This document shows positions 5,220-17,068 of a stretch of 40,481 nucleotides of DNA, piece after piece. The stretch spans positions 1-40,481 of the forward strand of contig CACIGF010000006.1 of assembly GCA_902586195.1 (NCBI GenBank), written 5' to 3'. The translations under genes were made by a program, and so were the position numbers. This DNA comes from an uncultured beta proteobacterium. GTDB lineage: Bacteria > Pseudomonadota > Gammaproteobacteria > Burkholderiales > Burkholderiaceae_A. Under the pieces are notes generated by a model, which was given only the letters and a program-made list of their open reading frames with translations, had not been told where the DNA came from and did no database searches. Position 1 is the first letter of the stretch. The number at the start of each line of letters is the position of its first letter.

Positions 5220-5396
5220 TTGTATATTTAACAAAAAAATTTTTTTATTTTAAAGGCAGATAGTTCATACTACACTATTTTTGTCCCTATTTAACGTATT
5301 TTAAATGTTTTTACACTTAAGCGTATTTTCTATCAATCCAATAAACTAGTGTAGTTAAGTTTGTTGTATCCTAACAATCAATGTACAGATTTATTT

Positions 5397-5822
5397 CTAA
5401 TCTGGGGGTGCTTTACACAGATCCATGTCAAGGGGAAACTCACTGAAAAATTTTCCTTCCATCGTATAATACGTCCATACTATGGGTACCCTCCTTGCTA
5501 CTCTGTATAACTCGTCCCTCTCACAAAAAGATTTTAATAAACCTCTCAAATGCAACTTTTCACGCACGAGATACTCCCGCCCTGGAGATATTGCAACACT
5601 CACTCGTATTTTTAAATTTTCCCCAGAACCATAACACGCGGAACCTAGTTCAGTTAGGCCATCAGTTTTCGTCTCTAACTGACCAATCAATAATGGGACA
5701 GACCTGCACAATTGGTCAATATTCCCGGTGTATCCAGTTTTCACTGAAAAAAAGAAACTCAAAACCACCAAAAAAAGCCGAACAAGTTGCCTCATTTTTA
5801 GTCTAGAATTGATCAAAATCAT
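5397..5822 (-). CDS. exported protein of unknown function
   Basis: I do not recognise this 141-residue protein. A signal peptide is clear: MRQLVRLFLVVLSFFFSVKT, starting at an internal ATG (5792), which may be the true start. The mature part has four cysteines (LCRSV, SACYG, SFCER, DLCKA), suggesting two disulfides in the periplasm. ATG 5822 lies five bases after the stop of the arsC-like gene, and a tandem 9-bp duplication (AGGTGCTAT twice) spans that junction and supplies an AGGTG just before the ATG. Expression could therefore be coupled to arsC. No domain is assignable. Confidence 0.6.
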   Translation of the reverse strand: MILINSRLKMRQLVRLFLVVLSFFFSVKTGYTGNIDQLCRSVPLLIGQLETKTDGLTELGSACYGSGENLKIRVSVAISPGREYLVREKLHLRGLLKSFCERDELYRVARRVPIVWTYYTMEGKFFSEFPLDMDLCKAPPD

Positions 5823-5827
5823 AGCAC

Positions 5828-6175
5828 CTATAGCACCTGAAGTACTTTCTCAAGCGGCCTCGCAATTACAGCTTTCTTGCCTTTTATGGCAATTGGCCGT
5901 TCAATTAATTTTCTGTTTTTAAGTACAATCTTTATAATATCGTCATCCGTCAGATCCATGTTTAGCTTGTTTTCCAAAGATTATTTTTCTTTTACCCTCA
6001 ATATATCTCGGGGTTTCAGTTTCAAAAGACCTAAAATCCGCAGAAATTCTTCATATGAGATTTCATTTTCTAAATATAAAAAAGTTTCATATTTAACATC
6101 TATCCTATCTAACAAAGCTAAAGTTTGCCGAGATTTACTACACCGTGGATTATGAAAAACTATTACAGGGTTCAT
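5828..6175 (-). pseudogene. arsC: arsC-like reductase with an in-frame TAA
   Basis: The frame reads as a complete 115-codon ArsC/Spx-family protein interrupted by one TAA at codon 65 (5983-5981). The first half, MNPVIVFHNPRCSKSRQTLA, has the redox CxxxR motif with Cys12. After the TAA the same frame continues with SLENKLNMDLTDDDI, KLIERPIAIKGKKAVIARP and the usual C terminus (EKVLQVL). The arginines corresponding to Arg60, Arg94 and Arg107 of plasmid R773 ArsC are present (R60, R93, R106). So only a single nonsense codon breaks it, with no shift of frame. It may be a recent pseudogene, a sequence error or a read-through case. An in-frame N-terminal extension to ATG 6259 overlaps the upstream gene but does not resemble ArsC. 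Confidence 0.85.
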
Positions 6176-6255
6176 GTTTTTTTGTGGATTAACTAAAACA
6201 TCTAAAGTTTGGTGAAAGTGTATTTGAGTTGTGACTACATTTAAAATAGCACATG

Positions 6256-6594
6256 TCATTCATTTAATTTTTTTTCAACAGTCTCTAGTAAAAAATTAAG
6301 TAAGTCAATTTCATAAACAAAAGTTTTAAAACCGTCCTTTGGATGTCTCAAAAGATGTTTCCGCTGGAACACACCTTCCGCAGAATGCTCATAGCCTATT
6401 AATGATGTTGCATTCTTGACAAGATCCATATCTAGTCTAAAAACCTGGTGCGTGTTCGCGAATTTTGTCTTTTTAAGCTCCGCTAATATTGATAAAAGTT
6501 TACCTCGACACTCTTCTTTGATCTTTAACTCCTATATATTAAACAATCTTTTCAGATATGTTGTATCATCATTAAACCAGGGAGGTGCATGCAT
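6256..6594 (-). pseudogene. unknown gene upstream of arsC with an in-frame TAG
   Basis: From ATG 6594 the frame reads MHAPPWFNDDTTYLKRLFNI, then TAG at codon 21 (6534-6532), then 91 more codons to TGA at 6256. The second part looks coding (LLSILAELKKTKFANTHQVF, YEHSAEGVFQRKHLLRHP, YEIDLLNFLLETVEKKL). It has no ATG near its own beginning; the first internal ATG is about 34 codons in. TAGGAG at the stop resembles a ribosome site, so an alternative is translation from a rare start just after it. The end overlaps an ATG of the arsC frame as ATGA. I do not recognise the family and cannot tell pseudogene from unusual start. Confidence 0.45.
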
Positions 6595-6632
6595 ACATTA
6601 TATATTCAATAAATCTAATTTGAACAATTGAA

Positions 6633-6932
6633 ATGAAGCAAGACTTCGAGGAAATGAAAAAACAAGCTGCGGAGGCGAGTGGTGTTCTTAAAGCCATCGC
6701 CAATGAAACCCGCTTGCTGATATTATGCTCTGTTATTGAAGATGATTTTACTGTGAATCAACTCTCAGAAATAACAGGTTCCGGTCAGTCGGCGGTATCA
6801 CAACACTTAAAAGTTCTATCAGAGCAAAATATTGTTAGCTCTAAAAGAATGGGTAAGAAAATTATTTACAAGATTACTGAGCCTAAAGTTAAAGCTATAT
6901 TGGTTCTCATGCACGCATTATATTGCAAATAG
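6633..6932 (+). CDS. ArsR-family regulator, BigR/SqrR-like
   Basis: A 99-residue winged-helix repressor of the ArsR/SmtB superfamily. The recognition region is TVNQLSEITGSGQSAVSQHL and the wing is SKRMGKKIIYKI. It lacks the ArsR CxC metal motif. Instead it has Cys32 in TRLLILC and Cys98 in HALYCK, at the positions of the paired cysteines that sense persulfide in BigR/SqrR/YgaV-type proteins. That sub-family assignment is by motif. No ribosome site lies directly before ATG 6633. A strong GGGAGG at 6580-6585 instead serves a 7-codon frame (6589-6612) just upstream, so expression may depend on re-initiation. It is divergent from the arsC-like pair. Confidence 0.88.
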   Translation: MKQDFEEMKKQAAEASGVLKAIANETRLLILCSVIEDDFTVNQLSEITGSGQSAVSQHLKVLSEQNIVSSKRMGKKIIYKITEPKVKAILVLMHALYCK

Positions 6933-14692: not shown

Positions 14693-15163
14693 CTAATAGA
14701 CAATTATTGTCCCGACCATGCCCATTTGTGAATGTGTTTTTCCGGTTTTTTTATCTTTGACATAACAATGTAAATCATCAAATTCGCCGGTTTTGATTGG
14801 AACTAACCACCATTCAACTATACTCTTCGGGAAAATTTCAACATCCGATATATTTCCTTTAATTTCAGCGATCCTCTCACCATTTTTTAAAACCTGAACC
14901 TTTCGTGTAAACACGGCTTTCGAAAACTTTGGAGAGCTAAAATAATGCTTAGCATTTGAATTATTCTTCAAAATAATCTTATAAAGTTTACTTGTTTCGA
15001 GACGGATTGAACTTGGACTAAAAAAATGAGATTCAACACTACTTTTCATATCTATTTTAATTTCTATAGGGTTCTGCCTAGTCAAATCTCCCGCCGCATA
15101 TGTATTATGAAATAACGAAAAAAAAGCTATCCATAGAAAATTGAATTGTTTAGACACCTTCAT
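14693..15163 (-). CDS. exported cupredoxin-like protein
   Basis: A predicted periplasmic protein of about 156 residues with a signal peptide (MKVSKQFNFLWIAFFSLFHN...AA). The mature part looks like a cupredoxin: IRLETSKLYKIILKNNSNAK, then His in KHYFSSPKF, and near the C terminus a Cys (LHCYV), a His (KTHSQ) and a Met (MGMVGTIIV) in the order H-C-H-M expected of a type-1 copper site. Spacing between Cys and His is longer than in plastocyanin because of a KDKKTGK insertion. It follows the CsoR gene by 125 bases on the same strand, consistent with a copper function. Binding is inferred from the ligand pattern only. Confidence 0.7.
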   Translation of the reverse strand: MKVSKQFNFLWIAFFSLFHNTYAAGDLTRQNPIEIKIDMKSSVESHFFSPSSIRLETSKLYKIILKNNSNAKHYFSSPKFSKAVFTRKVQVLKNGERIAEIKGNISDVEIFPKSIVEWWLVPIKTGEFDDLHCYVKDKKTGKTHSQMGMVGTIIVY

Positions 15164-15288
15164 AATAAATAACATATCAAATATTTTTAAAAATAGGTAA
15201 AAATCTCGCTATCCAGGTAACAATTCTACTAACTTATTTTGCAACTTAAAAAAGTGAATGAACGGTTTAGTTCTAAATTTTCTTTAAA

Positions 15289-15552
15289 TCACTTAATTTG
15301 TTTGAAGACTTTTACTAATTCAGAAATTTTTTCTTCCATTTCTTTTTTATTTAAAGCCTGAGTTACGCAACTCCGCAAATGTTTTTCAAGAACCTTGGTT
15401 TCCACTCGAGTTAAAGAGGATTTAATGGCTTTAATTTGGTTCACTATATCCATACAGTATCTCTTATTTTCAATCATTTGATGAATACCACGAACTTGAC
15501 CTTCAATTCTCCTTAAGGCAGTTAAATTATCGCTATGATCAGGGTGACTCAT
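15289..15552 (-). CDS. csoR: CsoR-type copper-sensing repressor
   Basis: An 87-residue all-helical repressor of the CsoR/RcnR family. The N terminus ALRRIEGQVRGIHQMIE is the family DNA-binding helix, and Cys33 (YCMDI), His58 and Cys62 (KHLRSC) make the C-H-C copper(I) site at the usual spacing of CsoR. RcnR and FrmR differ at these sites, so copper is the likely inducer. The gene lies three bases after the MerT-like membrane protein and ends the tight part of the operon. A matching operator (ATACCC-N5-GGGTAT) lies at the operon promoter, so the protein probably autoregulates the whole cluster. Confidence 0.9.
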   Translation of the reverse strand: MSHPDHSDNLTALRRIEGQVRGIHQMIENKRYCMDIVNQIKAIKSSLTRVETKVLEKHLRSCVTQALNKKEMEEKISELVKVFKQIK

Positions 15553-15555
15553 TTC

Positions 15556-15921
15556 TTAAACAAACTCCGGGATTACGTATGTAAAAAATGTTGCGCCTAA
15601 AAGTATACCACTAGATACATAAAAAATAAGCCTAGACCGCTTTCTAAGTAACATACATTTTCTACCCTGTTCCGGGTCAACCGGACACGGGGCAAAAGAT
15701 GCCCTGTAGTTCAAATATCCGGCGACTCCCATCATAGAAAAAGCAAATAATGTCAACTCGATTTTATAAACAGATAGCGTAATTAAAAATGGAAATACAC
15801 TAACGAAGCTCGCAAAACTTGCTCCGGCACCCATCATGACAAAAATCGCTGGTAGTGCACAACAAAAAAGTGTGGATGACGATGTGAATAACGAAAAGAT
15901 ACTGGCTATACTATCTTTCAT
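15556..15921 (-). CDS. MerT-like metal transport membrane protein
   Basis: A 121-residue inner-membrane protein with three to four predicted helices. The first helix carries a vicinal cysteine pair, STLFCCALPAIFVMMGAGAS, as in the mercuric transporter MerT. A second cysteine pair lies in the loop APCPVDPEQGRKC (Cys79 and Cys89). Both fit hand-over of a soft metal across the membrane. Its ATG overlaps the stop of the upstream HMA gene by one base (TAATG), so the two are translationally coupled. There is no merA nearby and CsoR controls the cluster, so copper is likelier than mercury. Direction of transport is unknown. Confidence 0.8.
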   Translation of the reverse strand: MKDSIASIFSLFTSSSTLFCCALPAIFVMMGAGASFASFVSVFPFLITLSVYKIELTLFAFSMMGVAGYLNYRASFAPCPVDPEQGRKCMLLRKRSRLIFYVSSGILLGATFFTYVIPEFV

Positions 15922-16319
15922 TACAATGTGAGCACTTTCATATCTACTGCTGTTTGACCATTTGCAGTAATCTTTTCTTTAATATCTTCAAAACTTATTT
16001 TTGTGCCGCTGGAATACGCAATTAAAACCTTACCTACTTCCAAATCTACGTCTACTTTTTTGACATTTGCGCTCTTCATAAACGTTTTCTCAATTCCACG
16101 CGCACAAAAATCGCATACCATACCATTTACATTCACTACTGCAATTTGTTCACCGCTTGCAAGATCTTTCGTGAATCTCGTATACTTCTGGTTATCAATT
16201 TCAAACCCTTCACCGGAAACAGATTTCATGGGCTGATTATCAGACCCGTGATCATGACAGTTATGAGCAAATCCAATTGATGTTATAGATAGTAAAAATG
16301 CAAATATTATTTTTTTCAT
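15921..16319 (-). CDS. periplasmic heavy-metal-associated (HMA) protein
   Basis: A 132-residue exported HMA-domain protein. The start ATG 16319 has AAGGAG six bases upstream and gives a clean signal peptide, MKKIIFAFLLSITSIGFA. A His-rich segment follows (HNCHDHG), then the HMA domain with GMVCDFCARGIEK (CxxC) and KKVDVDLEVGKVLIAY. This resembles MerP and CopZ-type domains, here placed in the periplasm. It lies between the outer-membrane-like gene (13-base gap) and the MerT-like gene (1-base overlap). A role as a periplasmic metal carrier to the MerT-like transporter is inferred by analogy with MerP-MerT. Confidence 0.88.
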   Translation of the reverse strand: MKKIIFAFLLSITSIGFAHNCHDHGSDNQPMKSVSGEGFEIDNQKYTRFTKDLASGEQIAVVNVNGMVCDFCARGIEKTFMKSANVKKVDVDLEVGKVLIAYSSGTKISFEDIKEKITANGQTAVDMKVLTL

Positions 16320-16332
16320 GTAATTCTCCTTA

Positions 16333-16938
16333 TTAAAAACGTTGAATAAAATGTAAATCGAGTCGCTCTCTATTATCAAAACCTACTTCAAGTAATGTAT
16401 CCCCCTTAAAGAATTTGAGAATAGGATAAGTATGAGTTTCATTCAAATAGCTGTTCTTTCTAGCCTTTAGCATTACCCATGTATGGAGATCACCATACTC
16501 TCCCACATACGGAACCATGCCAGCCATCACATACTGATCATAAAATTCGGAATCAAAAAAACTATTCTGGCTGTGCTTGAACCCCAGAAAATATTCTCTA
16601 GTTTCCCAATCTCCCTGCACTCCATAACTATAATTTGATGTATCATTTAACCCCAAACTTGAAATGAAGTAAAAATTAGCTTGAGAGTTTTTGGTATTCT
16701 TACGCATTAGCAACCGTGTGTATCTAAGTAAACCATAAGAAGTATCAAAGCCTTTATCTTTCAAAACTTCAACTCCAATAGACTGCTTATACGATGGAGA
16801 GTAATGGACGTACGCTGATTCCTTTGTGTAATTAGAAAACGTCATAAATGTGAATGAATCAGTGTAGGACACCGGCCTACCAAACACTGCGCATGTCCAT
16901 ACCAAACTACCCAAAACAGCGAATTTATATATACCCAT
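16333..16938 (-). CDS. exported beta-rich protein at the head of the metal operon
   Basis: I do not recognise the family. The 201-residue protein begins MGIYKFAVLGSLVWTCAVFG, a signal peptide, and the rest alternates aromatic and polar residues in short strands (SAYVHYSPSYK, YGLLRYTRLLM, ANFYFISSLGL, REYFLGFKHS), ending LDLHFIQRF with a terminal Phe. That pattern suits a small outer-membrane beta barrel, which would complete an outer membrane to periplasm to inner membrane route with the next two genes. ATG 16938 lies inside the CsoR-type operator and close to the predicted transcription start, so the message may be leaderless. Confidence 0.7.
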   Translation of the reverse strand: MGIYKFAVLGSLVWTCAVFGRPVSYTDSFTFMTFSNYTKESAYVHYSPSYKQSIGVEVLKDKGFDTSYGLLRYTRLLMRKNTKNSQANFYFISSLGLNDTSNYSYGVQGDWETREYFLGFKHSQNSFFDSEFYDQYVMAGMVPYVGEYGDLHTWVMLKARKNSYLNETHTYPILKFFKGDTLLEVGFDNRERLDLHFIQRF

Positions 16939-16947
16939 CCGGGGTAT
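16931..16947. promoter_or_regulatory. CsoR-type operator
   Basis: ATACCC-ATCCG-GGGTAT, an inverted repeat with a five-base centre, closely matches known CsoR boxes (TACCC/GGGTA type). It overlaps the -10 region and the first codons of the operon's first gene, so binding would block transcription initiation. Confidence 0.75.
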
Positions 16948-16975
16948 GGTATCGCACTTCTATAGGGACAGTCAA
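16946..16975 (-). promoter_or_regulatory. promoter of the CsoR metal operon
   Basis: On the minus strand TTGACT (16975-16970), an 18-base spacer and TACCAT (16951-16946). The start is predicted within a few bases of ATG 16938. The -10 overlaps the CsoR-type operator. Confidence 0.5.
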
Positions 16976-17042: not shown

Positions 17043-17068
17043 GGGCACTTCAGTAGCATAAAGTGCCC
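17043..17068 (-). terminator. hairpin terminator after the DEAD-box helicase gene
   Basis: GGGCACTT and AAGTGCCC form an 8-bp stem with a 10-base loop, 24 bases after the minus-strand helicase stop. ATTTTAG follows on that strand, a modest T-tract. Confidence 0.6.

Follow-up and report, generated by a model that had tools for sequence, protein, structure and literature searches.

How copper enters and leaves the cell through the outer membrane is poorly understood. MerP and MerT pass mercury to the cytoplasm, and MerT carries a Cys-Cys pair in its first helix and two further cysteines before or at the start of its last helix. The repressor CsoR normally lets go of its target under copper excess. 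Among copper systems, published work describes the CsoR family as controlling copper efflux (PMC3902906), PcoB as having a Met/His-rich disordered N-terminal domain (PMC12509749), CruR of Bordetella pertussis as a leader at the head of a copper-import operon with a TonB transporter (PMC9426467, PMC12914433) that copper shuts off (PMC9426467), and CutF of Rhodobacter as a leader through which copper turns cutO on (PMC9973294, PMC8456105). Here we analyse a locus on a 40,481-nucleotide contig of an uncultured beta proteobacterium (CACIGF010000006.1, assembly GCA_902586195.1; the whole stretch is hereafter the window) in which genes for a 201-residue barrel-like protein, an exported HMA protein and a MerT-like protein stand in a row before a CsoR gene. 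We hold it probable, if only just, that the three core genes form an envelope-spanning, copper-responsive unit for copper handling, most likely for tolerance.

The three genes recur together. Within the order, a barrel profile matched 20 of 250 genomes, one copy in each and the same 20 with a 4-row and a 74-row profile, and the HMA and MerT-like genes lay directly downstream in all 20; the genome searches scored a limited number of candidates per genome. In a sample of the phylum, the barrel was found in 4 of 398 genomes, namely the window genome and three others, all three with HMA and MerT-like genes. When loci were anchored on the HMA protein, the barrel lay upstream in 80 of 80 and the MerT-like gene downstream in 77 of 80. 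These loci, with up to 6 kb of flank on each side, are the best 80 of 291 relatives, come mostly from Burkholderiales and include close kin, so that they do not amount to 80 independent events; L037, L038 and L070 are apparently contigs of genomes also in the order sample. Because the scan used the single motif GMVC[AS]FCA, it misses GLVC and GMVCD types, the window's own included. As to the three loci without the MerT-like gene, the contig breaks off in L056 and L090, and L099 lacks it. In that Spartobacteria record (5333–6708), a leader-like open reading frame (ORF), the barrel and the HMA gene are followed by an unrelated 135-residue exported-looking protein in the MerT-like place.

A search with the MerT-like protein matched 26 of the 250 order genomes, 23 of them strongly, and 20 of these 23 carry the barrel. 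The remaining strong matches are a fragment (L149) and two loci, L155 and L156, that have the HMA gene and an outer-membrane channel of family PF13557 (Phenol_MetA_deg), so an outer-membrane partner recurs even when it belongs to another family. At L156 (99–3125), the row reads MerR-family regulator, thioredoxin-like, DsbD-like, MerT-like, HMA and channel, a second and different three-compartment set; at L155, on the minus strand, the channel stands directly before the HMA and MerT-like genes. The barrel has no Pfam match to PF13557, and kinship with these channels is not supported by hhalign of alignment A7 with the L156 channel (12.5% probability), although the L155 channel matched the barrel model weakly at 14.7 bits. 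In trees of the barrel, HMA and MerT-like proteins, the window clade had the same members (G001, L026, L132 and L133; support 0.999, 0.978 and 0.958, respectively), a pattern that joint transmission of the three genes would produce. By phmmer (E up to 0.01), neither CsoR nor the cupredoxin-like protein encoded beyond it had a match among the ORFs of the 80 loci. The conserved set is thus barrel, HMA and MerT-like protein, and CsoR belongs to the window's genus, outside the general set. An earlier sequence-only reading of the locus had proposed co-occurrence of the 201-residue protein with HMA, MerT-like and CsoR genes as a check, which these counts bear out for the first three genes and do not support for the fourth outside the window's genus.

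Neither Pfam nor NCBIfam gave a match to the 201-residue protein at E up to 1; it had no sequence relative of note among solved structures and, in one query, none on plasmids. AlphaFold2 modelled it with 12 strands at a mean predicted local distance difference test (pLDDT) score of 88.7, with block means of 89–97 from residue 31 on. Its top structural matches are mostly outer-membrane barrels, including the beta domain of BrkA (3qq2; Z 17.6, 2.4 Å over 169 residues) and VhGalP, KdgM and EspP (Z ~15–16), with low sequence identity throughout. From this modelled fold, we confidently assign the protein as an outer-membrane beta-barrel. PcoB is absent from the structural matches listed, which has no bearing on kinship; the protein falls outside PcoB/CopB, with no match to that family and no Met/His-rich disordered N-terminal domain, and its first strand begins at residue 28, shortly after the signal peptide. 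Five methionines (window positions 30, 32, 162, 173 and 198) are conserved in 86–99% of 73 family rows, and all five point inward by strand phase, called without Met and His. H132 (81%) likewise points inward, a His at 178 (55%) outward, and M23 (93%) precedes the first strand. The strands of the window barrel hold ten Met and His residues, seven inward (M32, H45, M138, H152, M156, H169 and H196) and three outward (M78, H122 and M141), and phase called from the window sequence alone is the same for all 12 strands.

Cysteines of the HMA and MerT-like proteins are conserved across their relatives. The HMA protein, with the motif GMVCDFC, exceeds the Pfam HMA cut-off of 24.8 bits and falls outside the NCBIfam MerP family (TIGR02052; 18.5 bits for the window protein and 38.4 bits for that of L085, cut-off 92.55). 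Similarly, the MerT-like protein stays below the Pfam MerT cut-off (PF02411; 19.8 versus 32.9 bits). Its C20, C21, C79 and C89 are invariant in alignments of 28 and 39 sequences and reproduce the cysteine layout of MerT on the modelled helices (residues 2–29, 33–42, 45–74 and 83–120; mean pLDDT 84.0). The cupredoxin-like protein, with candidate ligands H, C, H and M read by eye, is below the Cupredoxin_1 cut-off of 27 bits; its gene is present in G000 and G001.

Control of the window locus is of a copper type. CsoR belongs to the CsoR/RcnR family (PF02583, cut-off 22.8 bits), and its C33, H59 and C63 have identical counterparts in its best solved relative, the CsoR of 4m1p (68.2 bits). Together with a G-tract pseudopalindrome as operator, these C-H-C ligands match the copper-type CsoR pattern. 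The nickel sensor InrS, also among the solved relatives, has the same three ligands in the alignment, and for this reason we regard copper as the likely rather than the proven metal of the window CsoR. The operator ATACCC-N5-GGGTAT has a single exact match in the window (with two mismatches allowed, 2 versus 0.84 expected), and, as the sequence-only reading had it, this match overlaps the predicted promoter. Its extent takes in the last part of the -10-like box (TACCAT, 16951–16946) and the barrel ATG (16938). The promoter itself comes from a consensus scan that gave 13 sites in the region versus 9.7 expected. In all four genus genomes compared, the ATG lies 7 nucleotides after the -10-like box, with box and spacing kept, and from this spacing the operon transcript may be leaderless.

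We examined eight genomes of the genus for the operator. An exact copy lies over the barrel ATG in G000, G001 and G007, with N5 cores CGGAT, CCCAT and CTTAT, and G002 has one with a single mismatch; exact copies are absent from the other four genomes, in which the barrel had no match. A backwards control pattern gave no exact match in the eight genomes, and in a one-mismatch search of G000 alone the operator gave 4 sites against 1 for the control. The right half of the operator also encodes the first residues of the barrel, and the left half is noncoding yet kept. As judged from these genome comparisons, operator conservation is above chance. In G000, G001 and G002, the gene after the MerT-like one is that for CsoR, which is broken in the Ns-bearing assembly of G002; the G007 contig stops after the HMA gene. 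In G002, the row (L015:5869–8720) reads DoxX, azurin, barrel, HMA, MerT-like and CsoR, with Ns and frameshifts that are possibly assembly errors. We rejected a further exact operator copy (G000 C10:22877) as a second regulated site, as it is part of a coding sequence (I-P-V-E-G-M) and G001 has the same 17 letters. Separately, a perfect operator-like palindrome (L011:12025–12041; G000 C10:28024–28040) stands ~60 bp before a DoxX gene; G000 has it in exact form, G006 and G001 have degraded versions and G002 has none, and we regard it as weak. An azurin-like gene follows DoxX in G001, G002 and G006 (Pfam-tested in G002 only).

Most other loci carry a different kind of copper-type switch. Among the 74 loci with enough upstream DNA, 56 have just upstream of the barrel a leader-like ORF with CxxC or CxxxC and PP, the layout and position of CutF and CruR, compared with 7 of 470 control genes under the same rule, although the rule allowing CxxxC was set after the sequences had been seen, so the count is not blind, and the rule covered Cys motif, PP and position, with lengths left unfiltered. 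The controls were other ORFs of at least 150 residues in the same loci, picked by length and perhaps not all genes; three of the seven matches (L043, L069 and L079) precede an outer-membrane efflux gene. A looser rule gave 43 of 74 loci versus 11 of 470 controls. The PP lies near the C terminus at a near-fixed distance from the Cys motif, mostly 37–42 residues. Two leader representatives scored 15.2 and 16.1 bits against the DUF2946 model (PF11162; cut-off 23.7), a third and the L099 leader had no DUF2946 match, and representatives were also below the CopL cut-off. Hence, we call these leaders CutF/CruR-like by layout only. Among loci without a leader, L043, L045, L057, L079 and L096 instead lie near genes for CusF, multicopper oxidase or RND proteins, and others have neither. 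At L130, in the phylum sample, a CusF-like gene and the end of what by eye is a multicopper oxidase directly precede the module. At L025 (2178–2750, minus strand), in genome G264, which has no copper P1B-ATPase match, a MerR-family regulator lies directly upstream of the barrel; the MerR, ZntR and CueR models match it best, below every cut-off. Elsewhere, in L016 and L017, the module stands beside genes that read by eye as ArsR, an arsenate-reductase-like phosphatase and an aquaporin.

At E up to 0.001, a model of copper P1B-ATPases matched none of the eight genus genomes (control 14 of 14) and 242 of the 250 genomes of the order. The module occurs in 4 of the 8 order genomes without an ATPase match versus 16 of the 242 with one (Fisher P = 0.0017, uncorrected for kinship).

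How might such a unit work? With its cysteines, the MerT-like protein would trade Cu(I) with the HMA protein in the periplasm, and the HMA protein in turn would trade it with the barrel, whose lumen would bear Met side chains, in part replaced by His in the window's branch. Expression would depend on copper, with CsoR as the switch in the window's genus and a copper-sensing leader ORF at most other loci examined. The net effect would most likely be tolerance, with copper moved outward or cleared from the inner compartments. We favour tolerance over acquisition because CsoR frees its targets at high copper, because copper-type genes flank the module and because no P1B-ATPase match was found in the genus. 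Genes for CusF, multicopper oxidase, CopI-like cupredoxin or DUF411 occur in the flanks of 24 of the 80 loci, a count that names each family from one representative and has no background rate for comparison.

That missing rate is one of several points that weigh against the tolerance unit. The window barrel keeps only M32 of the five conserved methionines, and one more methionine, conserved in 62 of 74 rows, aligns with a gap in the window and allows no placement. Inward facing was derived from hydropathy phase rather than coordinates, and is weak for strand 66–81. L025 shifts its place among the three trees. Two of the four ATPase-less genomes with the module (G205 and G264) are of one genus, two further genomes of which (G042 and G131) lack both module and ATPase match; at the curated cut-off the ATPase model matches 227 of 250 genomes, and the association was computed only at E 0.001. 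The window genome is 70.7% complete, and RND pumps matching the CusA/CzcA model occur in seven of the eight genus genomes, above the cut-off in G007 only. The leaders could be either CruR-like (off with copper) or CutF-like (on). Finally, no energy source was seen for the module.

Acquisition is the strongest alternative, and we consider it possible, if rather unlikely: the barrel would admit copper, the HMA protein take it up and the MerT-like protein pass it to the cytoplasm, as MerP and MerT do with mercury. The known direction of MerT and the conserved cysteines of both proteins are in keeping with this, as is the precedent of CruR, with which the leader-like ORFs share the Cys motif and C-terminal PP and which heads an import operon (PMC9426467, PMC12914433). 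However, CsoR would then switch import on at copper excess, in a genus without a P1B-ATPase match, and the neighbours at other loci are of the tolerance type. We therefore rank tolerance first, about twice as plausible as uptake. Of the earlier proposal of an undescribed copper uptake or handling route, the novelty may survive, as searches of open-licence papers gave no description of the set; the uptake direction stays unproven, and CsoR logic and the flanking genes point the other way. The proposal of a copper-controlled MerP-MerT logic with an outer-membrane member fares better, given copper-type control, the predicted barrel and a widely recurring three-gene core, except that CsoR is not the shared control.

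A bolder form of the tolerance reading is speculative, and we would not lean on it. It takes the module as a Cys-to-Met relay across both membranes that would replace P1B-ATPase export, with the MerT-like protein working outward and the Met/His-lined barrel as exit, and as the genus' main CsoR-controlled copper defence, the leader having been swapped for CsoR.

We think it improbable that the HMA, MerT-like and cupredoxin-like proteins hold copper for cuproenzymes such as azurin or an oxidase, or hand it to them, with the barrel an unrelated porin-like partner. The cupredoxin-like gene that follows in the window, the DoxX and azurin genes just before the module in G002 and the CopI-like cupredoxin genes that flank the module at 7 of 80 loci would suit such periplasmic supply, but the linkage holds in 56 of 80 loci that have no CusF, multicopper oxidase, CopI-like or DUF411 gene nearby, other cuproenzymes not having been searched for. 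A role for the module with a soft metal other than copper (mercury, silver, gold or nickel), its copper links being incidental, is very unlikely: the MerT resemblance, the MerR-family regulator before the L025 barrel and InrS among CsoR's solved relatives hint at it, against two unrelated copper-type control systems, copper-type neighbours and no mercuric reductase noticed by eye among 45 listed flanking clusters, with no search aimed at mer genes.

On the window itself, all five ORFs of the sequence-only reading were found where it had placed them on the minus strand (table below). The barrel and HMA genes are 13 nucleotides apart, the HMA and MerT-like genes overlap by 1 base, and CsoR follows after 3 nucleotides. 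These four genes form a predicted operon, set apart from the upstream helicase gene by a candidate hairpin; the cupredoxin-like gene lies at least 113 nucleotides past CsoR.

Features of the copper-type locus, in positions of the window
Feature	Position	Strand	Basis
201-residue exported 12-strand outer-membrane beta-barrel protein (predicted)	16333..16938	-	AlphaFold2 and structural matches
Exported HMA protein, motif GMVCDFC, MerP-like role (predicted)	15921..16319	-	Pfam HMA, 34.4 bits
MerT-like inner-membrane protein	15556..15921	-	C20-C21 in first helix, C79 in loop before last helix, C89 near its start
CsoR-family repressor, C33-H59-C63	15289..15552	-	Pfam, 95.6 bits
Cupredoxin-like exported protein	14693..15163	-	Pfam Cupredoxin_1, 22.3 bits, sub-threshold
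CsoR-type operator ATACCC-N5-GGGTAT	16931..16947		Exact; over -10 box and start codon
Sigma-70-like promoter TTGACT - 18 nt - TACCAT	16946..16975	-	Consensus scan only
Terminator-like hairpin	17043..17068	-	Between upstream helicase gene and predicted operon; 1 found versus 1.5 expected by shuffling, weak

A barrel family of unknown function, tied to HMA and MerT-like proteins under two unrelated copper-type switches, makes a concrete and testable gene set, relevant also for bacteria in which no copper-exporting ATPase is detected. With MerP-MerT, the module shares an exported HMA protein and a small inner-membrane protein with Cys-Cys in its first helix and two cysteines around the start of the last; it differs in lying below the curated MerT and MerP cut-offs, in its copper-type control and in the conserved barrel gene before HMA. 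Like CruR-bfrG/crtA, in which a DUF2946 leader is paired with a copper TonB transporter, and like CutF-cutO, it has a leader ORF with a Cys motif and C-terminal PP before the candidate copper genes, but these encode a 12-strand barrel, an HMA protein and a MerT-like protein, and the Cys-to-PP spacing is 45 in CruR against the shorter range here, where representatives are below the DUF2946 and CopL cut-offs. PcoB/CopB are likewise outer-membrane barrels linked to copper gene sets, whereas the barrel described here has no Pfam match and is partnered by HMA and MerT-like proteins, not PcoA. CsoR-controlled copper operons have the same C-H-C repressor and G-tract pseudopalindrome, yet here the genus has no P1B-ATPase match and the apparent target is the relay module. 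MerP-MerT-like transport, CsoR and copper leaders are already known as parts; searches of open-licence papers gave no description of the three conserved genes as a unit with a barrel family of their own, or of a leader switch replaced by CsoR.

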